From: Collinsella aerofaciens
Lineage (GTDB): Bacteria; Actinomycetota; Coriobacteriia; Coriobacteriales; Coriobacteriaceae
Length of the DNA stretch: 64,000 nt
Direction of reading: 5' to 3'
Assembly: GCF_015554145.1 (NCBI RefSeq)
Contig: NZ_JADNHZ010000012.1
Span: 1-64,000 of the forward strand
Part shown: positions 4,521 to 45,477 of the stretch, piece by piece
Numbering within the stretch: position 1 is the stretch's first letter
How the letters are laid out: every line of letters starts with the position of its first letter
The notes under the pieces: model-generated
Told to the model about the DNA's origin: nothing
Databases searched by the model: none
What the model saw: the letters and a program-made list of their open reading frames with translations, nothing else
Program-made: the position numbers and the translations under genes

Positions 4521-4638
4521 CTGCAATGAGAACAGGTTGACGCACGCCAGCCTCTTAACGCAAGGAGTGTCCCAAACTGCCGGCACAAAAGGAACGTCCC
4601 CAAGTGCCGCAAAATGACGACATCCACTCTCGCTTTGT

Positions 4639-4700
4639 GGGTAGTCATTGGGGAGGTTCTTGTTTGACTAGTCGTTTAAAAACGTCCCCAATGACTACCC
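4639..4700. repeat. 16-bp inverted repeat
   Basis: Perfect 16-bp arms at 4639-4654 and 4685-4700 (TCCCCAATGACTACCC on the right) enclose 30 bp that include GACTAGTC. Similar GTAGTCATTGGG text occurs beside the family A repeat near 33790. No gene is visible between 4521 and 4715; this stretch is repeat-derived. Confidence 0.7.
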
Positions 4701-4715
4701 AACGACTAGTCCGGA

Positions 4716-4893
4716 CCAAGGCAACGCCGATGTTTTGGCAACGACAGCGAAAACCCGCCAGAGCGAGCAAGGTGCCTTGAAACGAGGCGGCATTGATCTT
4801 TTTTGATCATGCCGCCGAAGTTGAAAGGCAGATTGCCGCTCTGGCGGGTTTGCAGCGTCAACTGGTTACGCGGGCTGGTAAGCCCGCGTAACC
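4716..4893 (-). repeat. family A structured repeat, copy 1 (3' of LCP gene)
   Basis: Copy 1 of an approximately 170-180-bp structured repeat also found at 20263-20442, 33803-33970 and (degenerate) 45325-45460. Read on the minus strand it starts exactly after the LCP stop codon with a perfect 13-bp hairpin (4864-4893). GACGCTGC follows, then a long hairpin whose basal arms are 4752-4765 and 4837-4850, then a conserved tail containing TTGCCAAAACATCGGCG. Stem sequences differ strongly from copies 2 and 3 while pairing is kept. This copy lacks the terminator-like core seen in those copies. Confidence 0.75.
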
Positions 4894-6129
4894 CTAATAA
4901 TTGGCTTCGTAGCCGTTGCCGTCGCCGGTGGGCTCTTCGTAGTAGTCCGAATCGCTCGAATCGCTTGAGTCATCGGAATCGTCAGAGCTGACCGATGAGG
5001 TTGCGGTACCGTTCGCGTAGTCGTCAGACGTGTTGTTGTTCAGGTCGCCGATCGTAGAGCTCGAACCGTCGGAAAGACCCATGGTGTTGGGACCCTTGGG
5101 ATCCTTGCCGGCGTCGACGCGCTCCATCATTTCCTTGAGCTCGTCCTCGTAGACAAAGACGTAGCTCACACCGTCGATCATGGTGCTGTCGTCGGCGTAC
5201 GAGGGCAGGTTGGCCGAGTAGATACCGTCGACATCCATACCGCGCATGGCATTGACCGTAGCCACGATATCCTGAACGCTCATATCGGTTACGAGCATAT
5301 CAGACAGCGAATTAACCAGGCCAAAGATCTTCGTGGCATCGAAGTTATTGAGAATCTGGTTGGCAAGGGCGCCAAGCACCTGACGCTGGTGGCGCATGCG
5401 CGTGTAATCGCCGTCGGCATAGGTGTAGCGGCAGCGGGCATAGGTAAGGGCGGTGGCACCGTCCATATGCTGCTGGCCAGCGGTAATCTTAATATCCAGG
5501 TGCTCGGGGTCGTCAACATCATCGGTTGCGTTAATGTCGATACCGCCAACCGAATCAATCAGCGCCTGCATTCCGTCGAAGCTGACCTCGGCATAGTGGG
5601 AAATCTGAACACCGCACAGCTCGTTGACCGCCTCGACCATGGCCTCGGCGCCGCCAACGGTATGGCAGGCGTTGATCTTCATGGTCTCGCCCTTGTACTC
5701 GACCTTGGTGTCGCGCGGAACGGAAATGAGCGTCGCCTGCTTTTGCGTGGGGTCGATGCGTGCCAGGATAATCGAGTCGGCACGATACGTATCCTCGCCC
5801 GGACGGCCGTCGGTGCCAAGAAGCAGCACGTAGAACGGATCCTTTGCCTCATCGGTGTCAACCAGAACCCGACGCAGATTGTCGGTAATGACATTAGAAT
5901 CGCCGAGCTTGCCCATAATGGTGGCAAACCACAGGCCGGCAGCGGTAGTGGCACTCAGCAGCACGCCAAGCACGACAATGAGCGCGACGTGACGAATCGT
6001 GTGGCTACGGCGACGTTGACGAGCGCGCTCGGAATAGCGAGCCACGTTATCGCGACTGTAGATCTTGGCCTGCGCACCAGTTGAGGGTCTTCGGGTGGTG
6101 GTATCCGCGAGGGGCTTTTTATTAAACAT
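4894..6129 (-). CDS. LytR-CpsA-Psr (LCP) family cell-wall ligase
   Basis: LCP-family phosphotransferase, 411 residues, expected to attach undecaprenyl-linked glycopolymers to peptidoglycan outside the membrane. It has a basic cytoplasmic N-terminus, one membrane segment near 47-69, then the LCP domain with LLLGTDGRPGE, RADSIILARID, ISVPRDT and the Arg-rich CRYTYADGDYTRMRHQR. The C-terminal approximately 60 residues are low-complexity Asp/Ser. The ATG at 6129 has AGG upstream; a TTG two codons earlier is less likely. The gene lies 12 bp after murA, so it is probably co-transcribed with peptidoglycan precursor synthesis. Repeat A copy 1 begins directly at its stop codon. Confidence 0.88.
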   Translation of the reverse strand: MFNKKPLADTTTRRPSTGAQAKIYSRDNVARYSERARQRRRSHTIRHVALIVVLGVLLSATTAAGLWFATIMGKLGDSNVITDNLRRVLVDTDEAKDPFYVLLLGTDGRPGEDTYRADSIILARIDPTQKQATLISVPRDTKVEYKGETMKINACHTVGGAEAMVEAVNELCGVQISHYAEVSFDGMQALIDSVGGIDINATDDVDDPEHLDIKITAGQQHMDGATALTYARCRYTYADGDYTRMRHQRQVLGALANQILNNFDATKIFGLVNSLSDMLVTDMSVQDIVATVNAMRGMDVDGIYSANLPSYADDSTMIDGVSYVFVYEDELKEMMERVDAGKDPKGPNTMGLSDGSSSTIGDLNNNTSDDYANGTATSSVSSDDSDDSSDSSDSDYYEEPTGDGNGYEANY

Positions 6130-20262: not shown

Positions 20263-20442
20263 GACAACCAAGGAAACGCCGATGTTTTGGCAATGTCAGC
20301 GAGCGACGTCCAGGGCGAACAAGTTGGCATGAAAAAGGCAAGGCATTGACCTTCTGGTCATGCCTTGCCTTTTGAATGACAAATTGTCGCCCTGGGCGGC
20401 GCGCAGCGTCAACCGGTCCGCCGTTCGGTAGAACGGCGGAAC
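20263..20442 (-). repeat. family A structured repeat, copy 2 (3' of prfA)
   Basis: Second family A copy. Read on the minus strand, a hairpin (TCCGCCGTTC/GAACGGCGGA, 20417-20440) begins at the prfA stop codon. GACGCTGC and a long hairpin follow. The apical part of the long hairpin, AAGGCAAGGCAT... / ATGCCTTGCC followed by five Ts, is an intrinsic-terminator structure. The tail CCAAAACATCGGCG is shared with the other copies. It probably terminates prfA. Confidence 0.8.
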
Positions 20443-21510
20443 CTAAACAGCCTGTGCCAGCTTCTCGGCTCGCTCGGCGGCGGCGAGTGCCTCGATGACG
20501 GTGCCGAGCTGGTCGCCCAGGAGGACGCCATTGTAGGTGGAGTTGAAACCGATGCGGTGATCGGTCACGCGGTCCTGGGGCTGGTTGTAGGTACGAATCT
20601 TTTCGGAACGGTTGCCGTGGCCGATCTGACTCTGGCGCTCGGCACCGAGCTCTGCCTGCTGCTTCTCGAGCTCCATCTCGTACAGACGAGCGCGCAGCAT
20701 CTGCATGCAGACCTCGCGGTTCTGGATCTGGGAACGCTGCTCCTGCGACTGCACCACGGTGTTGGTGGGCAGGTGGGTGATGCGCACGGCGGAGTAGGTG
20801 GTGTTAACGCACTGACCGCCAGGGCCGGAGGCGCAGTAGGTATCGATGCGCAGGTCGGACTGGTTGATCTGAACGTCGATCTCCTCGGCCTCGGGAAGCA
20901 CGGCGACGGTTGCCGTGGAGGTCTGGATGCGACCCTGGGACTCGGTCTTGGGGACGCGCTGGACACGGTGCACGCCGGACTCGAACTTCATGACGGAGTA
21001 GACGCGGTCGCCCTCGACCTTGAACTCGATGGACTTAAAGCCACCGGCCTCGCTGGGGCTGGAGTCGAGCACGGTGGTCTTCCAGCCGCGCGACTCGCAG
21101 AAGCGCTGATACATCTTGTACAGGTCGCCGGCAAAGATGGCCGCCTCGTCGCCACCGGCGGCGGAGCGGATCTCGACGATGGTGTTCTTGTCGTCGTTGG
21201 GGTCGCTCGGGATGAGCATGTACTTGATGTCTTCCTCGAGCTGGGGAAGCTTGGCCTCGTTTTCGGAGATGTCCATCTGGAGCATCTCCTTCTCATCGGC
21301 ATCGGTGGTATCGTGGAGCATCTCCTTGGCGGCCTCGATGTCATCGAGCGCGCCGATGTACTCACGCGAAGCGGCGATGAGGTCGGACTGGTGCGCGTAC
21401 TCCTTGTTGAGACGCGTGAACTCCTTGATATCAGAGGCGACGGCCGGGTCGGAGAGCTTCTTCTCGAGCTCCTCGTAGGCCTTGATAATCTTTTCGAGCT
21501 TGTCGCGCAT
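20443..21510 (-). CDS. prfA: peptide chain release factor 1
   Basis: RF1 recognises UAA and UAG and triggers peptide release. The 355-residue length is normal. The peptidyl-hydrolysis motif is present in ASGPGGQCVNTTYSA, preceded by the codon-recognition region in HRVQRVPKTESQGRIQTST (PKT in place of the usual PAT/PVT). ATG at 21510 has AAAGGAG upstream. prmC, which modifies its GGQ, lies downstream on the same strand. Confidence 0.97.
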   Translation of the reverse strand: MRDKLEKIIKAYEELEKKLSDPAVASDIKEFTRLNKEYAHQSDLIAASREYIGALDDIEAAKEMLHDTTDADEKEMLQMDISENEAKLPQLEEDIKYMLIPSDPNDDKNTIVEIRSAAGGDEAAIFAGDLYKMYQRFCESRGWKTTVLDSSPSEAGGFKSIEFKVEGDRVYSVMKFESGVHRVQRVPKTESQGRIQTSTATVAVLPEAEEIDVQINQSDLRIDTYCASGPGGQCVNTTYSAVRITHLPTNTVVQSQEQRSQIQNREVCMQMLRARLYEMELEKQQAELGAERQSQIGHGNRSEKIRTYNQPQDRVTDHRIGFNSTYNGVLLGDQLGTVIEALAAAERAEKLAQAV

Positions 21511-22258: not shown

Positions 22259-25200
22259 CTACCGGTTCCGGCGCCGCAGGATAACGCCTGCGGCGATCAG
22301 CACCACCGCGCCGCCCGCGATGCCACCCAGGGCCATCGGCGACAAGCTGGTATCGCCCGTATACGGCAGACCCGGCTTCTCCTCCTTCGGCACCGGTGAC
22401 TTGCCCGGCGGATTGGTGGGCGGCTCCGTCGGCGGGGTGGTCGGCGGCGTGTACGTGTTCTTGAACACCGGCGCCACGGCGCCGTCATAGGTTACCGTCG
22501 CCACCAGATGGCCCGCACCGTCGTCTGTCACCGTCACCGTTACCCGGTGCTCGGCCGCGTCGTACGTCACGTTCTTCTGACCGTCGTCCACCTCGGAGAT
22601 GCTGTAGGCGTACGTTCCGGGCTTGTCGTACGAGATCGCCTCGAAGCCCACCGTGCCGTCCGCCGCGTTCTTTGCGGTCTGCAGCACCTTGCCGTCGGCA
22701 TCCTTCAGCTGGAAGGAGAACTGCCCTTCCTTCAGGTCCTCGCCGCTCAGCACCTTGGAGGCCCCCAGCTTCACCTCAGTCGCGGCCGGCGCGTAACTGT
22801 TGCTGAACGCCACCGCATCCGCAGCCTTGCCGCCCTTGCTGTAGGCAACCTGCGCCTCCAGCGCGTGCGTCTCCGCATTCTCCGTCACCGTCACCGTCGC
22901 GGTAAAGACCGTCGTGTCGTAGGTGACGCCGTTCGCCGTCGCCCCTGCCCGCTCGGACACGGTGTAGACGTACGTCCCCACCTTGTCCAGCTGCAGCGGC
23001 GCGAAGCCGAACGTGCCGTCGGCGCCGTTCTGCACCGTCTGCACCACGTTACCGTCGGCGTCCTTCAGGTTGAAGAAGAACTCACCCTCGGCCAGGTCGC
23101 GGCCGGTCAGAGCCTTCGTTCCGGTAATCGTCGCCGTCGTTGCCGTCGGCGTGTAGGTGTTGGTGAAGGTCAGATCCGCAGCCGTCTTGTTCGCCGTCGC
23201 GGTCAGCTGGCCGCTGCCGTCATCGGTCACGTTCACCGTTACGTCCAGCACCGCATCGCTGTAAGTGATGGTGCCATCTTGGCCCGCAACCTCCTTCACC
23301 TGGTACGCATGCGAACCAGTTGCGGTGTACGAGATGGCCTTGAAGGTAAACGCTTTACCCACGTTCGTGGTCCGGTCGATCTCCTGCCCGGTGGCCACGT
23401 CAATCAGCGCGAATGTGAACTCGCCATCGGCGGGCGTCCGCGTGGTGGCCGGGTCGGCATTCTCAAGCACCTTGGTGCCAGAGATCTGGTAGGAGGTCTG
23501 ACCCGGCTGATAGCTGTTCGCAAACGTCATGGTATTGGGGGTGACGCCGTTCTCGGTGCCCTCGCTCGGTTTCACCGTAGAGCTCTCTACCACCAGCTTG
23601 CCGTCGTTGTTGTCCTTCACCACGTAGGTCAGGGTGTACGTCTTGCCGGTGTAGGTCACGCCCGGCACGCCCGGCGCGCCGTCCGTCGGCTGCACCTCAC
23701 GGACCGTGAAGGGAAAGGTGCCCGCATGGTCGAAGGTCAGCTCGTTAAAGTAAACCTTGCCCTTGGCGTCGTTCTTCTGGGTCTGGAGCACCGTACCGTC
23801 AGACCCCACCAGCTCGAAGGCGAAGTCTCCCGCCTTTAGCTGATAGCTGCCGTCGTGCACGTCAACGCTCTTGGTGAGGGCGATCGCGCCGGAGTTCGTC
23901 GCCTTCGCCTTGTAGGTGTTGGTGAAGGTGGGCTTCGTGGCGTCCGCGCCGTCGTAGGCGACGCTCGCCTGCAGCGTGCCGGCATTGTCCACAACCGTCA
24001 CCACGGCATGATGCACCGCGTCGTCGTAGGTCACGTAGGCCAGATCACCCTTCCGCTCCACGATAGTGTACTCGTACGTGCCCGGCTTCGCGTAGGAGAA
24101 GGCGTCGAAGTTAACGCTTCCGTCCGCGCCGTTGGTCGCGGTCCGGACGGGCTTGGCCCCGGCAAGCTGCTCAGCAGTCATTTTGCCCTCGTACACATCG
24201 AAGGTGAACTCGCCGTCCTTGGGGACGATCGGCGTGTTGTCGTCCTTCTTCACATAGCTCTTCTGCGCACCGAGGGCCAGACCGGTCGCGGCCGGCTGGT
24301 AGGTGTTGGTGAAGGTATCCGAGCCGGATGCGCTCGTCACGATCGCCTTCGCATTCAGTGCTCCGTTCCCGCCGTCTGTGACCGTCACCGTATAGGTGAG
24401 GGCATGATTGTCATAGACCATGCCCGGCTCCGCGCCCGGCTGCTCCACGATGGTGTAGGTGAAGTCCTTGCTCGCGGCACCGTCCAAGTCGGAGAGCTGG
24501 AACTCGCGCGTGAAGCAGACCTTGCCGTTTGCATCGTTCTTCGCGGTGGCGATCACGTTGCCGGCAGCGTCCTTCAGGTCGAAGGTGAACTCGCCGTCCG
24601 CAGGCTTCGTCGTGTGATCGAAGCCGTCCGCAACCTTGATGGTCTTGGTCGCCGTCAGCTCCACGGATCCCTTTGCGGTGTAGGTGTTGTTGAAGGTGGG
24701 AGCCGTAGCGGTACCGTCATAGGTGACGGTCACCTTCGTCTTGTTGTTGTCGTCCTGGTTCTGCTCTACCTTGACGTGGACCTTGACTTCCTTGGCGTCG
24801 TAGGCCACGCCGTCGACGGACTGGCCGGCCTTCTCCTCCTTGAGCGTGTAGTCGTACTCGCCCAGGTTCAGGCCCTTGACGGTCAGCTTGACCTTGCCAT
24901 TCTTATCGTTGGTGCCGCGAGCGTCCTCATTGCCGTCCTGGTCGTACAAGCCGAAGGTGAACGCATCGGCCGTCAGGTCCTTGCCCGCGAGAACTTTCGT
25001 GGCCTCAACGGTGACGTCCGCCGTCGGCTTCGTGTTGGTGAAGGTCGGCACGGCCTTCTCACCGTCGTAGGTGACGGTCGCCTTCAGCTCGCCCTTTTCG
25101 TCGGTGACCTTGACGTGGACCTTCACGCCCTTCGCGTCGTAGACGACGGTCGAGTCGGCGCCCTTCACCTCCTTGATGGTGTAGTCGTGGTCGCCCGGCG

Positions 25201-28200
25201 TAGCGTAGTCGATGGCTGCAAAGGCGACCTTGCCGTCCTTCTCGTTTTGGACAGTCTGGACCACGCTGCCGTCCTTGTCGAGCAGCTGGAACGTGAAGTC
25301 ACTCCCCGCGAGCTCGCCGCCCGTGAAGCGCTTCGTCGCCTTGAGCGTTACCGAGGTCTCCTTCGGGCGGTACGTGTTCGTGATCACCGCAATCTGATCG
25401 TCGATCACCTGAGATGTGGCGGTGCCATCATCCTTATAGATCTGCTCCATTTTGACGACTGGCTCGGTCAGATTTCCCTTGCCGTCATCCTTCACCGTTA
25501 CGGTCACTTTGTATTCGGCGCTGGAGTAGCTGACACCGCCCAGCCAACTGGGATCGCTCTTGGCGGGCGTAGTCTCGGCAATGTAGTAGGTGTACTTGCC
25601 AGGCTTCTCATACTTAATCTCTCCGAAGCTAAATTCTTCGGCGCTCGTAACGGTCTTCTCGACCTGCTTCATGCCGGCCACGGGCGCTGCCGTGGCACCA
25701 TCAGGCATCGGCGTTCCATCGGCGGCGCGCAGGCAAAGCTCGAAGCTGTCGGCGCTAGTCCACTCACGGCCGGTGAACTTCTTCTTCGCCTTGATGCCTG
25801 TGAGCGTCACCGAAGACTTCACGCTGTAGCTGTTGGTGAACACCAGCTTGTTGTCTTTGGCCACCGTGCCGTCGGAATTCTGCGGGGCAATCCTGCCCGA
25901 GATGCTATCGCCTTCTTCAGTCAGATTCTTGTCACCCTGCTTGCGGCCGGTCAGCTTATAGCCCGCGGGCATCTTGTCTGCGCCGGTCAGCTCCTGCACC
26001 GCGTACTGGTCACCCTCGGCGAGACCGTACACGCGGATCGTCTGGTCGGCCGTGATGGTTTGTGAATAGCCGTTCGTCAGGTTGAACACGTTGCCGACCC
26101 GCCGCTCGCCCGCAGTCCCCGCCTTCTCGAACACTGCAGCCTTGTAGGTCTTCCCCTCGGGCACGGTGAACTTGAAGGTGAACCCCGCGTCCTTATTGCC
26201 CGTCAGGCCATCGGGCACGTCAACCTTCTTCGTCACCTCGAGGCTCGCCTCGCGTTCGTTCGCCACGCGCACGCAGGTGGCGCCCGTGAACAGGGCATTC
26301 AGGTTCATGTCGCCCAGATCGGCGCGGGCGCCCTTCGCATTAGTGACACCAGGTTCATCCTGCGTGATGCCCATACGTATCCAGCCCGTCTCGGTCTCCA
26401 GGCGGTAAGGTTCGTCCTTCTTGGTGGGCCCATACTGGTAGACACGTCCATTGGCGCCGTACTTAAGATGTACCTCATTCTCGCCGCCCTTGGCGTCATT
26501 GTTCCAGGAAAGATTGCCGTTGCCGTCGAGCGTCCCGTCGGACGTCTGGCGCTGGCCCTTGATCCACGTGAGCGTGTTGTCAATGTCGCCCTCTGCGCCA
26601 AACTGGCCCAGGCTCTTCATGAGCGAGCCCACGCCCACGAACGTCGAAACGCCGTCATCAACTGTACCAGCATCGGCGTGGACGCCGTAATCGTCCACAA
26701 TCACCTTGATGAGCCTGTCATTAAGCAGGAAGCCATTGGGCGCCGAGACCTCCTTCAGGAAGTAGGTACCCTTCACGAGCGGCTCGCTACTGTCGCTCGT
26801 AGACGGGAATACGCCCGCCCCTTCGAGCTTGACCGGGTTGGCGACCGACCTCGTCGTCAGGGTGTCGTAGGAGGCCTGGTCGCCATCGAGCACGGCCTTG
26901 CCGTTCGCATCCGTAGTCACCTGGGTGGACTTGTAAAGGCCGAACTTCGCCCCGTCAACGGGCTTACCCTCGGTATCGGTCTTCTGCACGAACAGGCGAT
27001 TCTGGATGTTCGTGACGAGCAGGCGCGTGGCGAACTGCCGCTTGAAGTTCGTGCCGTCTGCGATGTCGTCGCTGTACACGTGGACTGTGTTCTTAGGCGT
27101 CGCGTCGCCGATCGAGCTCGCCGTTGTGTGGCAGATGGCCACCGTGTACTCGGCATCCTTGCGGGCATCACCGCTCAGCAGGTAGTAGTACTTGGAGATG
27201 TCACCGGGCAGATTTTGAATCTCTACCTGGTACTGGCCGCTTGTGTTGAGCGTGAAGGCGTGCAGGTCCTTCTTCGCCGCCTCGATAGCACCGGTCATGC
27301 CCGGCTCCTTGGCGAGGGTGTATCCCGCTCCCGTCGATGGGTCGCCCGACACGGCGTACCAATTGCTCGGATCTTTGATACCTGTGCCTGCGCTTTTGTC
27401 GCGCTTGAGCACCACAGCGAACAGTATGCCGGAGTCCAGATTGACGGTCTTGTCGGACTTCGTCAGGTCATTATTTGCCTTGTACACGGTCGACGGCGCG
27501 GTGATGGTCTCCTTCGCGGCGGCGAACGCACCGGTCTTCCACACGACGCTGCCCGCGTCCATACCGCCGCGGTTGATGATGACGCCGCCCGCGCCGTTCT
27601 CAGCGCTCGCGGGCACGTACTCGAGCTGCATGCTACCACCCGTCGCCGCGAGACTCGAGCGGTATCCCTCGGGTACGCGCGTCTCCTTCAGGAGGTAGTA
27701 CTTGTTGTTGTCGTGATCCTTGTTGTAGAGATCGTCGAAGTTGATGACGCCGTTGTCCACGTCGTTCGTGAGCGTTAGGTGGCCGGCCTCGTCCGTGGTA
27801 CCGGAGCCGAGAAGCGCGTTCTCGTTATTGGTCGTATCTGTAAAGCTCCCGTCTGTTTTGTACAGCGCGAACTCGGCACCCTGTACGAACTTGCCATCCT
27901 GGTCGAACTTGATAATGTCGGACTCGGGCACCGTCACGAGGTTGAACTTGAGCTCCATGTTGGAGTCGGTGGCGCCGCGCTCCAGGTAGAAGAACTTGAG
28001 GGTGTGGTTGGTGTCGTCGGCGAAGGTGTTGCCTTTCCAGCTCGTGTCGTCGGCCTTGCCCGCCTCCTGGTACTTGGTCAGCAGTGTGCCGTTGTAATTG
28101 TCGTTTACCTTAATGTCGCCCGTACGAAAGTTGATGCTCAGACTCGCGCGGTTGTGAATGCCGCCAATGTCGCCCACAAGGACATCGTCAATGAACACCC

Positions 28201-29002
28201 AGACGTCGTCGTCGCCGGCGAACTCGAAGGTCATGTCATTATTATTGTTCGTCAGGCCGCCGTTGGGCTGCACGAATCGCGTGGACATTGAGAGACCGAA
28301 GTGGTGGTTGACGGGTTTGCCGCCGTTGTAGCGCGAATCACCGGTGTTGTCTGCCTTGATGCCGTTTTGGACGAGCCTGTCGTTTTCCTCTTTGAACACC
28401 TTGTCTGCCGCGTCGAACGGGAAGAACTGACCCTGGTGGGACGAATCGCCCACTTTGTCAATGCCCCAGGTGTCATAGATGTCAAAGGCATTCTTGTCAG
28501 CGTTGTAGGCTGCGTAGTTTTCGGAGCTGTCATAGACGTAGTAGCCGTCCTGAACCTTAAGGAGGCCCGTCACGCCAAAATGGGATGTCTTGCCGGTCTG
28601 GGCAGAGGAATCGAATAGGTAGCGGAGGGACTCGTCGCCCAAGGCTTCGGAAAGCTTCGGGTAGCCATCTGAAAGCGTGTTGTTGACGATGCCGGGCCGC
28701 GGGCTCGTGCCGCCCGTCCAATTGTTGAGCGGCCCATCACCCTTGCCGTCGTTAAACTGGAACTTGTGGCCTGCGTTGACGCCGCCGTTGCCGGAAACCG
28801 ACAGATGGTTATCGGGATTCACCCAGTAATCAAACAGGTTGATTGTTGTCCCCGAAGGCGAAATCGTCGTAACCGTGTGGTCCGAAAACGCCGCTTCCGC
28901 ACGGGTCGGCAGGAAGAAACTCGCCGTCAGCGCGACGGCGAGGGCCAAAACAATCACATATGGCGAGACCGGGCGCAGCCCACGACGACGGCCATAAGAC
29001 AT
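22259..29002 (-). CDS. giant LPXTG-anchored pilin-like adhesin (fibro-slime, SpaA and FctA-type repeats)
   Basis: Cell-wall-anchored surface protein, 2247 residues. A signal peptide (basic MSYGRRRG, hydrophobic core, cleavage likely after AEA near residue 38) leads into a fibro-slime domain with FAGDDDVWVFIDDVLVGDIGG near 263-281. Two SpaA/Cna-B-like domains follow (about 360-450 and 670-775), then a spacer domain (about 917-1060). Nine tandem FctA-type pilin isopeptide domains of 110-150 residues (about 1065-2190) end in NTY-like asparagines. A Pro/Thr stalk, LPYTG near 2212, a membrane helix and RRRNR complete a sortase signal. Repeats are divergent at DNA level. ATG 29002 was chosen for the signal peptide, although its ribosome site is weak. 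No sortase gene is in the window. Confidence 0.9.
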   Translation of the reverse strand: MSYGRRRGLRPVSPYVIVLALAVALTASFFLPTRAEAAFSDHTVTTISPSGTTINLFDYWVNPDNHLSVSGNGGVNAGHKFQFNDGKGDGPLNNWTGGTSPRPGIVNNTLSDGYPKLSEALGDESLRYLFDSSAQTGKTSHFGVTGLLKVQDGYYVYDSSENYAAYNADKNAFDIYDTWGIDKVGDSSHQGQFFPFDAADKVFKEENDRLVQNGIKADNTGDSRYNGGKPVNHHFGLSMSTRFVQPNGGLTNNNNDMTFEFAGDDDVWVFIDDVLVGDIGGIHNRASLSINFRTGDIKVNDNYNGTLLTKYQEAGKADDTSWKGNTFADDTNHTLKFFYLERGATDSNMELKFNLVTVPESDIIKFDQDGKFVQGAEFALYKTDGSFTDTTNNENALLGSGTTDEAGHLTLTNDVDNGVINFDDLYNKDHDNNKYYLLKETRVPEGYRSSLAATGGSMQLEYVPASAENGAGGVIINRGGMDAGSVVWKTGAFAAAKETITAPSTVYKANNDLTKSDKTVNLDSGILFAVVLKRDKSAGTGIKDPSNWYAVSGDPSTGAGYTLAKEPGMTGAIEAAKKDLHAFTLNTSGQYQVEIQNLPGDISKYYYLLSGDARKDAEYTVAICHTTASSIGDATPKNTVHVYSDDIADGTNFKRQFATRLLVTNIQNRLFVQKTDTEGKPVDGAKFGLYKSTQVTTDANGKAVLDGDQASYDTLTTRSVANPVKLEGAGVFPSTSDSSEPLVKGTYFLKEVSAPNGFLLNDRLIKVIVDDYGVHADAGTVDDGVSTFVGVGSLMKSLGQFGAEGDIDNTLTWIKGQRQTSDGTLDGNGNLSWNNDAKGGENEVHLKYGANGRVYQYGPTKKDEPYRLETETGWIRMGITQDEPGVTNAKGARADLGDMNLNALFTGATCVRVANEREASLEVTKKVDVPDGLTGNKDAGFTFKFTVPEGKTYKAAVFEKAGTAGERRVGNVFNLTNGYSQTITADQTIRVYGLAEGDQYAVQELTGADKMPAGYKLTGRKQGDKNLTEEGDSISGRIAPQNSDGTVAKDNKLVFTNSYSVKSSVTLTGIKAKKKFTGREWTSADSFELCLRAADGTPMPDGATAAPVAGMKQVEKTVTSAEEFSFGEIKYEKPGKYTYYIAETTPAKSDPSWLGGVSYSSAEYKVTVTVKDDGKGNLTEPVVKMEQIYKDDGTATSQVIDDQIAVITNTYRPKETSVTLKATKRFTGGELAGSDFTFQLLDKDGSVVQTVQNEKDGKVAFAAIDYATPGDHDYTIKEVKGADSTVVYDAKGVKVHVKVTDEKGELKATVTYDGEKAVPTFTNTKPTADVTVEATKVLAGKDLTADAFTFGLYDQDGNEDARGTNDKNGKVKLTVKGLNLGEYDYTLKEEKAGQSVDGVAYDAKEVKVHVKVEQNQDDNNKTKVTVTYDGTATAPTFNNTYTAKGSVELTATKTIKVADGFDHTTKPADGEFTFDLKDAAGNVIATAKNDANGKVCFTREFQLSDLDGAASKDFTYTIVEQPGAEPGMVYDNHALTYTVTVTDGGNGALNAKAIVTSASGSDTFTNTYQPAATGLALGAQKSYVKKDDNTPIVPKDGEFTFDVYEGKMTAEQLAGAKPVRTATNGADGSVNFDAFSYAKPGTYEYTIVERKGDLAYVTYDDAVHHAVVTVVDNAGTLQASVAYDGADATKPTFTNTYKAKATNSGAIALTKSVDVHDGSYQLKAGDFAFELVGSDGTVLQTQKNDAKGKVYFNELTFDHAGTFPFTVREVQPTDGAPGVPGVTYTGKTYTLTYVVKDNNDGKLVVESSTVKPSEGTENGVTPNTMTFANSYQPGQTSYQISGTKVLENADPATTRTPADGEFTFALIDVATGQEIDRTTNVGKAFTFKAISYTATGSHAYQVKEVAGQDGTITYSDAVLDVTVNVTDDGSGQLTATANKTAADLTFTNTYTPTATTATITGTKALTGRDLAEGEFFFNLKDADGNVVQTVQNGADGTFGFAPLQLDKVGTYVYTVSERAGATANGVTYDTTVFTATVTVTENAETHALEAQVAYSKGGKAADAVAFSNSYAPAATEVKLGASKVLSGEDLKEGQFSFQLKDADGKVLQTAKNAADGTVGFEAISYDKPGTYAYSISEVDDGQKNVTYDAAEHRVTVTVTDDGAGHLVATVTYDGAVAPVFKNTYTPPTTPPTEPPTNPPGKSPVPKEEKPGLPYTGDTSLSPMALGGIAGGAVVLIAAGVILRRRNR

Positions 29003-29030
29003 GACGGACCACCGCTCGCGCGGCCGGTGT

Positions 29031-29111
29031 TCACCAGGAAGTTCCCTGCTTAGACACCCCCCCGGTAGCATTATTCACGAGTCGAGACGTCGTCTCTCTG
29101 AGCTCCTGCAT
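29031..29111 (-). CDS. 26-codon upstream reading frame with strong RBS, G7 tract inside
   Basis: ATG at 29111 follows GGGGAGGAAATT, a far better ribosome-binding site than that of the adhesin ATG. The frame encodes 26 residues (MQELRETTSRLV..., ending GTSW) and stops at 29031, 28 bp before the adhesin start. It contains a run of seven Gs. With six or nine Gs this frame would run uninterrupted into the adhesin at 29002. It may be a leader peptide, or the real adhesin start in an alternative phase. Function is inferred from the geometry only. Confidence 0.5.
   Translation of the reverse strand: MQELRETTSRLVNNATGGVSKQGTSW
29057..29063. repeat. homopolymeric tract (G7 on the minus strand)
   Basis: Seven consecutive Cs on the plus strand lie inside the 26-codon frame upstream of the giant adhesin. 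Loss of one base (or gain of two) fuses the two frames. Confidence 0.9.
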
Positions 29112-33802: not shown

Positions 33803-33970
33803 CGTCGATGTTTTGGCAATGCCAGCGGGCGCCACCCAGAGCGAACAAGTTAGCATGAAAAAGGCAAGGCATAGACCTTCTGGTCATGCCTTGCCTTTTG
33901 AATGACAAATTGTCGCTCTGGGTGGCGCGCAGCGTCGACCGGTCCGTCGTTCGTTAGAACGGCGGAACCT
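33803..33970 (-). repeat. family A structured repeat, copy 3 (3' of epimerase gene)
   Basis: Third family A copy, ending one base from the stop codon of the aldose-epimerase-like gene. A hairpin (33941-33969) is followed, on the minus strand, by GACGCTGC. A long stem comes next, with outer arms GCGCCACCCAGAGCGA/TCGCTCTGGGTGGCGC and the same AAGGCAAGGCAT terminator core as copy 2. GTAGTCATTGGG at 33789-33800 borders it. Confidence 0.8.
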
Positions 33971-34864
33971 CTAGAGCAGGGTAACGCTAAAGCTGCGAAC
34001 GTCCGTCTCACCCGGTGCCAAGGTAATGGTGTTGACCTTGTGCTCAAAGACGTCGTCCTCGGTGTCCATGGTGGTGTGACCGGTCCAAGGCTCGAGCGCC
34101 ACAAACGGAGCATCGTTGGCGGCAGACCACACGCCGATGTACTTAAAGCCCTCAAAGTCGATCTTGACGCCGTGGCCCGACTTGCGTCCGCGCAGCGTGA
34201 GCGTGGAACCCGGGGTATCGGTGAACATGATGGCATCGTTATCGAAGCTGCGGTGCGTGATGGGCAGCACGTCAGAGTTATCGGGCGCCTTGTAGCTACC
34301 CTCAAACGTCATGAGGCCATCGGGCGTGATGATGGGAGCCTCGTTGGTCCAAGCCTCGGTAAACGCCAGCTCGTAATCCTCGAATGCCTCGTCCTCGGCA
34401 CCGGGGGCGGGCACGTTAAATGCAGGGTGGCCGCCCACCGAGAACGGCAGGTCCACGTCGCCGGTGTTCGTAACGGCAAAGGTCTGGGTAAGCGTGGCGT
34501 CGCCGGTCAGGGCATAGGTCATGTTGAGCTTAAAGTGGAAGGGGAACGCCTTGAGCGACTCAGGCGTGTCAGTGATCTCGTAGGTGACAGACGAGCCGTC
34601 CTCAGAGACCTCGACCAGCTTGTGCTCGACGATGCGCGCGAGTCCGTGGCGCGGCATCTCGCAGGTGCCGGCCGCAGACGTTGCCGTGTTGTTGCGCAGC
34701 GATCCCACGATGGGGAACAGAATCGGCGCATGCTTGCCCCAAAAGGCGGGGTCGCCCTGCCACAGATACTCGTTGCCGTTGAGGGCAAGGCTCGTGAGCT
34801 GGGCACCCATGGAATCGATGGCCGCGGTGAGGCCGCCGCGCTTGATGGTAGTGACGGTGGACAT
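33971..34864 (-). CDS. aldose 1-epimerase family protein (LacX-like)
   Basis: Galactose-mutarotase-like beta-sandwich protein, 297 residues, probably acting on the anomeric carbon of a sugar or sugar phosphate. FWGKHAPILFPIVG, MPRHGLAR with the conserved His, and SVGGHPAFN with a second His match the LacX/YihR subgroup. The C-terminal EPWTGHTT contains another conserved acidic/His region. ATG 34864 has GGAGG. It stands alone, without sugar genes beside it, so the substrate is unknown. Confidence 0.85.
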   Translation of the reverse strand: MSTVTTIKRGGLTAAIDSMGAQLTSLALNGNEYLWQGDPAFWGKHAPILFPIVGSLRNNTATSAAGTCEMPRHGLARIVEHKLVEVSEDGSSVTYEITDTPESLKAFPFHFKLNMTYALTGDATLTQTFAVTNTGDVDLPFSVGGHPAFNVPAPGAEDEAFEDYELAFTEAWTNEAPIITPDGLMTFEGSYKAPDNSDVLPITHRSFDNDAIMFTDTPGSTLTLRGRKSGHGVKIDFEGFKYIGVWSAANDAPFVALEPWTGHTTMDTEDDVFEHKVNTITLAPGETDVRSFSVTLL

Positions 34865-45176: not shown

Positions 45177-45328
45177 AAAACTATGCCTATTTACTACGTT
45201 TAACCGCCCACCTCCAACCACAACAAATTTCACTCCAACAAAACCGCAGGTAGATAGCTTGCGCTTTTTCAGAAACAGCTGTTATGGTCGGGGATGCCGG
45301 ATTCATCGTAGTAATTAGGCATAGTTTT
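45177..45328. repeat. family B element, copy 1
   Basis: A 152-bp element with 22-bp terminal inverted repeats, 21 of 22 matching (arms 45177-45198 and 45307-45328). The centre shares GTTTAACCG, CCGCAGGTAGA, GCTTGCG and ATGGTCG with copy 2 at 55858-56019. No coding sequence. The region 44997-45176 to its left shows no gene. Confidence 0.78.
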
Positions 45329-45460
45329 TGGCAAAGCCGCTTCGAAAGGCATCATCGCAGCCCAAAACGATACCTTTTCCTTCGTCCCCAAGGGATCAGA
45401 TTGCCGCTTAGGAGCGTTTGCAGCGTCGAGCGGTTACGGCGTTTTACCAAACGCCGTAAC
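45325..45460 (-). repeat. family A structured repeat, degenerate copy 4
   Basis: Keeps TTTTGGCAA at one end, AGATTGCCGCTTAGGAGCG, GCAGCGTC and the P1 hairpin (GTTACGGCGTTT/AAACGCCGTAAC, perfect 12 bp) at the other. The left arm of the long stem no longer pairs. It abuts or is interrupted by family B copy 1, whose T-rich end merges with the TTTTGGCAA. No gene end adjoins its P1 hairpin, unlike the other copies. Confidence 0.6.
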
Positions 45461-45477
45461 TTAATAAGTTTGGTACC

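Follow-up and report, generated by a model that had tools for sequence, protein, structure and literature searches.

The described systems that come closest to the element reported here are the REP elements of E. coli, integron attC sites, Rho-independent terminators, and the structured RNAs collected in Rfam. A REP unit consists of about 20-40 nt with a single hairpin. An attC site lies behind a stop codon, folds better on the strand opposite the gene, and combines stems of variable sequence with conserved unpaired bases; its complementary R boxes have the consensus RYYYAAC/GTTRRRY. In E. coli, REPs that begin no more than 15 nt from a stop codon are reported to stall ribosomes; they number 446 of 4,072, and an earlier study had counted 260 of 496 (PMC12306157). 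As far as the accessible text of two RNA surveys goes, Collinsella-1 (RF01700) is listed in the one from 2010 (PMC2864571), and Collinsella is mentioned once, for a motif upstream of L7/L12, in the one of the human microbiome (PMC8040213).

The element was found in a 64,000-nt stretch of Collinsella aerofaciens DNA, referred to here as the window. Searched against Rfam, the window gives no match at the gathering score, and below that score only chance matches to microRNA models; the openly accessible article texts searched likewise gave no description of the family. The element is probably one of a family of modular DNA palindromes, repeated across the class, that work like REP/BIME elements.

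Anatomy and position of the element

Read in the direction of the gene that it follows, a full copy begins at the stop codon with a hairpin (H1) and continues with a linker containing YYGACGCTGC (box 1), a core of ~100 nt, a second conserved box (TCGCTGNC, box 2), and a tail, an order taken from an alignment of 33 copies. The core is a long hairpin in which small internal loops, also conserved, separate an outer stem of 12-15 bp from a GC hairpin at the inside; the tails are of a few types (TTGCCAAAACATCGGCG, CGTCCTCTACC, TTATGCTCAACC). H1 and the linker (~40 nt) are also found alone, either singly or in tandem. At one locus of the source genome (L240, C48:50998-51113), a remnant of H1 and box 1 lies behind a HypD-like gene, adjoining the start of the next gene. 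At other loci (L010, L011, L019, L025, L045, and their orthologs), an unrelated long hairpin terminates with a 28-nt element tail, CGCTCGCTGGCGTTGCCAAAACATCGGC, as if box 2 and the tail had been transferred alone.

The copies in the window all lie on the minus strand. In copy 1, H1 (4864-4893) abuts the TAG codon (4894-4896) of a LytR-CpsA-Psr gene; next come the linker with box 1 (4852-4863), the core, an imperfect hairpin (4751-4851, outer arms 4751-4765 and 4837-4851), box 2 (TCGCTGTC, 4743-4750), and a tail (4716-4742) that contains TTGCCAAAACATCG at 4728-4741. In copy 2, H1 (20415-20442) abuts the TAG (20443-20445) of prfA, the gene for peptide chain release factor 1, and is followed by the linker with box 1 (20403-20414), the imperfect hairpin of the core (20303-20402), and a segment (20263-20302) that holds box 2 (20295-20302) and the tail. 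Copy 3 lies 2 nt past the TAG (33971-33973) of an aldose epimerase gene, with H1 at 33941-33968, the linker with box 1 at 33929-33940, the imperfect core hairpin at 33829-33928, and box 2 (33821-33828) and the tail within 33803-33828. These copies had been placed at the right coordinates by a sequence-only reading, which also had them begin at minus-strand stop codons (H1 starts 0-2 nt past TAG) and called the host genes LCP, prfA, and epimerase-like, in agreement with Pfam for all three window genes. The motifs that it named as conserved are kept: CGATGTTTTGGCAA occurs at 4728-4741, 20280-20293, and 33806-33819 and at two further sites of the source genome, and a reversed-pattern control gives 0. 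It had rightly noted that copy 1 has CGGGCT/AGCCCG where copy 2 has CCGTTC/GAACGG, and that a fourth copy is degenerate. The latter (45325-45460) is a fragment that matches the model through H1 and the linker at 45410-45464 (E 1.5e-4); its H1 loop is the reverse complement of the usual loop, its core is reduced to the 5' part, and no gene end adjoins it.

A 24-nt inverted repeat (TGGGTAGTCATTGGGG.. / ..CCCCAATGACTACCCA, window 4638-4701), distinct from the element, adjoins copy 1, and similar sequence follows many element tails at other Collinsella loci (e.g. L031, L060). The minus strand of the window also contains one open frame of 2,270 codons (22259-29071).

The covariance model comprises 153 positions and two hairpins. 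In the 33-row alignment (A3, with the wrongly placed row L098 left out), 94.0% of the paired cells are complementary, versus 76.1 ± 0.6% after shuffling; double changes occur at 35 of 55 pairs, covariation is 0.454 versus 0.143 when shuffled, and sliding the structure by 1-3 columns leaves 33-40% paired. For copies 1 and 2, either strand folds far better than shuffled sequence (z of -8.8 to -14.3; RNA fold z of -12.5 and -8.8). The proposal that this is a conserved structured element tied to gene ends, and more than a plain repeat, is upheld, and the covariation is real.

The boxes and the overall plan recur in a second family (f2), probably that of the Eggerthellaceae, which includes genomes G120 and G138. 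With an open frame of 100 codons required, 21 of the 31 copies in the source genome begin within 7 nt of a same-strand stop codon, as do 32 of the 41 in G120 and G138 within 11 nt; a mirror control (opposite strand, 3' side) gives 0/31 and 5/41, respectively. For a further 5 of the 41, the stop codon lies inside the H1 loop. Loci at which the H1 loop holds the host stop codon (TAG, TAA, or TGA) include L346, L331, L329, L336, and L343, and because of this H1 there encodes the last residues of the host protein. Among the ten exceptions in the source genome are H1 units in tandem, a copy without H1, copies next to short genes, one copy that follows a native hairpin, and one that follows RNase P RNA. 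The host genes resemble ordinary core genes (e.g. pyrE, glmM, lysS, tyrS, queA, htpG, and rpoC, as named by eye from translations). The TAG codon itself was considered as a target and rejected: host genes use TAG in 19 of 32 cases versus 194 of 379 genomic cases (p 0.46), which is close to the genomic rate, so that no TAG preference is shown; TAG use in the window is 16/21 versus 23/46 (p 0.06).

What lies downstream varies. In G120 and G138, a start on the same strand, equipped with a Shine-Dalgarno-like motif, lies no more than 150 nt beyond 31 of the 41 copies, and a convergent gene lies beyond 8. The corresponding counts in the source genome are 4 and 9 of 29 copies, 2 of the 31 having been omitted for a missing flank. 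Judged by GC skew, copies are oriented with replication in 32 of 34 cases in G120 (genes, 122/183; p 7.5e-4) and in 31 of 32 in G138 (genes, 101/160; p 4.3e-5). Pooling these two complete genomes gives 63 of 66 for the copies and 223 of 343 for the sampled genes, the copies being those listed with positions (34 of 45 matches in G120 and 32 of 37 in G138). The housekeeping nature of the hosts may account for part or all of this bias.

In the source genome, 62 matches reach E<=0.01. Full-length copies account for 31 of them (E<=1.2e-20), and the others include fragments, antisense echoes, and a subfamily without H1 whose members are also placed after stop codons. Among relatives, the family is present in 35 of 58 genomes, with mostly 34-48 matches per genome in element-rich Collinsella (15 in an incomplete genome) and 0-20 in other species of the genus. 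A covariance-model search of Coriobacteria, as the sequence-only reading had suggested, succeeded across the class, with the family found in 107 of 296 genomes and 36 of 125 genera; since 10 candidates per genome were scored, the per-genome counts of this search are lower bounds. Eight genomes that were searched more fully have 5-45 copies each. Carriage by phages or plasmids was rejected: no phage record was found, viral contigs lack the tail pattern, and the sole match in a plasmid collection is to an 899,693-bp Collinsella record, at 7 places.

Exchange between gene ends

A given gene end can be found with or without a copy. At prfA, 30 loci were compared. Each of the 17 with the most similar gene (94-97%) carries a copy immediately after the stop codon; among the other 13, which are more distant (85-88%), 12 have no copy and 1 has an H1-less tandem. 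The 14 complete cores at prfA are of three unrelated types (6, 5, and 3), and copies of one core type still differ in H1 and tail. Close relatives have different module types at one and the same gene end. Elsewhere in the source genome, a second gene end (L146 = C11:154378) has a copy whose core departs from the one at prfA in 2 bases, both unpaired. At rnpB, 17 of 30 loci carry a copy on the 3' end of the RNase P RNA, with 12 and 5 cores of two types and some copies in tandem, and 12 more distant loci are without a copy. The rnpB site is also empty in G023, despite many copies elsewhere in that genome; this is the only relative that gave an empty site. Thus, as for mobile elements, a locus occurs with and without a copy, and copies are common to non-orthologous sites.

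Modules are also combined in different ways, as seen in the 63 of 97 instances whose modules could be classified, a sample in which the TTGCCAAAACATCG tail is over-represented, many instances having been fetched by it. Among these, 15 of 18 combinations of H1 and core are present. Mutual information between H1 and tail (0.072) is not above shuffles (0.052 ± 0.028), while that between H1 and core (0.356 versus 0.135 ± 0.053) and between core and tail (0.303 versus 0.117 ± 0.042) indicates association. The apical loop of copy 3 is exactly inverted at 11 loci of other genomes versus 31 with the direct loop, and the inverted loci carry the same epimerase gene end. According to the accessible text of two reports, loop inversion and arm homogenization are known outcomes of template switching (PMC8604942; PMC8794818).

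We propose that copies spread and overwrite one another by ectopic copying between gene ends, with the conserved boxes perhaps acting as borders of exchange. The boxes, the stop adjacency, and the loops are kept across families, so that selection acts on something, which pure homogenization leaves unexplained. No mobilizing enzyme was found. Mobilization by a RAYT was rejected because Y1_Tnp counts do not track copy number: Y1 transposases are missing from 13 of 30 element-rich genomes, and Y1_Tnp is missing from G051, which has 12 copies. The source genome has a sole Y1 gene in a typical REP-RAYT layout (L084, C44:118181-118504 plus flanks); it lies between AACCTGCCAAAA...TTTTGGCAGGTT palindromes, which are of another repeat family.

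Substitution pattern, strand, and alternative explanations

When pairing is selected in RNA, single changes to G.U are expected to exceed those to A.C. RNase P RNA, used as a control at 30 Collinsella loci, has G.U in 245 cells versus A.C in 38, with 74 WC<->GU versus 7 WC<->AC changes along a minimum spanning tree. For the element core, the figures are 73 versus 115 of 5,447 cells, with 28 versus 31 unique isolated events (105 of 186 aligned rows, after length, box, and duplicate filters), and for H1 they are 3 versus 4 and 3 versus 3. Near-identical cores, joined by spanning-tree edges of up to 8 differences, show 18 simultaneous Watson-Crick double changes, while single changes gave G.U in 21 cases and a mismatch in 31. 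Paired changes keep the arms Watson-Crick complementary, and the G.U signature expected for an RNA is missing. The mismatches are heterogeneous, being even over the whole core and A.C-rich in the outer stem, where the outer 12 bp have G.T versus A.C counts of 9 versus 23 in Collinsella and 4 versus 19 in f2. An outer-stem A.C on the gene strand can be read as G.U on the complement and hence would be tolerable there; strand-biased mutation could contribute to the excess. The G.U/A.C test calls for some caution, as the youth of the copies leaves selection little time.

According to one study, it is accepted practice to judge the reading direction by folding energy and by the pattern of substitutions (PMC1892782). 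With one core taken per 92% cluster, the complement of the gene strand folds better in 28 of 29 Collinsella and 41 of 41 f2 distinct cores with RNA parameters (69/70 in all). With DNA parameters the counts are 27 of 28 and 41 of 41; for RNase P RNA the complement folds better in 0 of 30. This arises because the conserved internal loops are mainly pyrimidine in the gene sense and purine on the complement.

The suggestion of the sequence-only reading that the element is "a 3'-UTR RNA or terminator" is not supported. As a sense-strand 3'-UTR RNA, the hairpins would act in the mRNA just past the stop codon, where they could shield the 3' end, stall the ribosome as it terminates, or uncouple the cistron that follows; such action is reported for E. 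coli REPs that lie no more than 15 nt from a stop. The exact stop adjacency, the gene-sense orientation, the strong fold, the 31 of 41 f2 copies between co-directional genes, and the E. coli REP precedent (PMC12306157, in its accessible part) all speak for such an RNA. However, the sense strand has no G.U excess in the core, the outer stem, or H1, its complement is the better folder, and copies also lie behind rnpB, which lacks a stop codon. We therefore regard a sense-strand RNA as unlikely.

The element could instead be a candidate new single-strand recombination site, at whose boxes a putative recombinase would swap cores and H1 units between gene ends throughout the Coriobacteriia. The strand opposite the gene would then form a long hairpin with bulges and purine-purine pairs, in an attC-like system without cassettes or a known integrase, and the replication alignment would fit transfer via single strands at replication forks. 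We consider this idea distinctly improbable.

A family of intrinsic or bidirectional terminators is less probable still. Copies do lie nearly always at gene 3' ends, including that of RNase P RNA, and an A-run and a T-run flank the inner hairpin in some cores. Copies 2 and 3 had been said to contain a typical terminator hairpin with a T run; the inner hairpin is indeed followed by five Ts in both, but a terminator scan found nothing above shuffled expectation inside them, and counts around copies are at shuffle level. H1 and most core types lack a U tract, and because 31 of 41 f2 copies precede a same-strand gene, a plain terminator is a poor fit. An antisense small RNA encoded opposite the gene is very unlikely as well: the complement is better folded, its outer-stem mismatches are of G.U type, and its conserved loops read as G.A and U.G pairs in tandem and as c(UUNN)g, but a promoter scan of that strand gave 0 of 36 segments at >=9/12, H1, which would form the 3' end of the RNA, lacks a T run and continues into the host gene, tails vary between copies, and the A.C excess could stem from strand-biased mutation.

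For the preferred explanation, a REP/BIME-like family of DNA repeats, the matching of the arms would be maintained in DNA, by template switching and/or a need of the DNA to fold when single-stranded, a need that would apply chiefly to the strand opposite the gene. Effects on mRNA decay, the terminating ribosome, or the next cistron may follow as side effects, by analogy with E. coli REPs. Common gut bacteria thus have a class-wide repeat family whose copies occupy the ends of core genes and are exchanged among these. Strong covariation, the usual proof of an RNA, is here coupled with a DNA-type substitution pattern, and this worked case offers G.U/A.C and strand-energy controls suited to other palindromic RNA candidates as well. 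A new single-strand recombination system becomes testable if the element is the target of a recombinase.

Comparison with known systems

Like the structured RNAs of Rfam, including Collinsella-1, the element has a covarying structure in Coriobacteria. Membership in a known RNA family was rejected, given the lack of an Rfam match and a substitution pattern unlike that of RNA: covariation is present, and an excess of G.U over A.C on the transcribed strand is not. Like Rho-independent terminators, it places GC-rich hairpins at gene ends; unlike them, it has no consistent U tract and is intercistronic in f2.

With integron attC sites, the element shares its place behind stop codons, the better folding of the strand opposite the gene, and variable stems with conserved unpaired bases. 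Membership among attC sites was rejected, as two sets of 69 and 34 copies contain none with the complementary RYYYAAC/GTTRRRY boxes. Unlike attC sites, copies are mostly single, behind housekeeping genes, and no cassette arrays were seen.

Unlike REP/RAYT systems, the element is not tied to Y1 transposases. It differs from a REP in being 4-5 times longer (relative to the REP length as generally given), in having a nested hairpin and two conserved boxes rather than a short unit, and in its far tighter stop adjacency and nearly invariable gene-sense orientation. Like REP/BIME elements, it forms a family of dozens of modular extragenic palindromes located at gene 3' ends and between cistrons, often near the stop codon.
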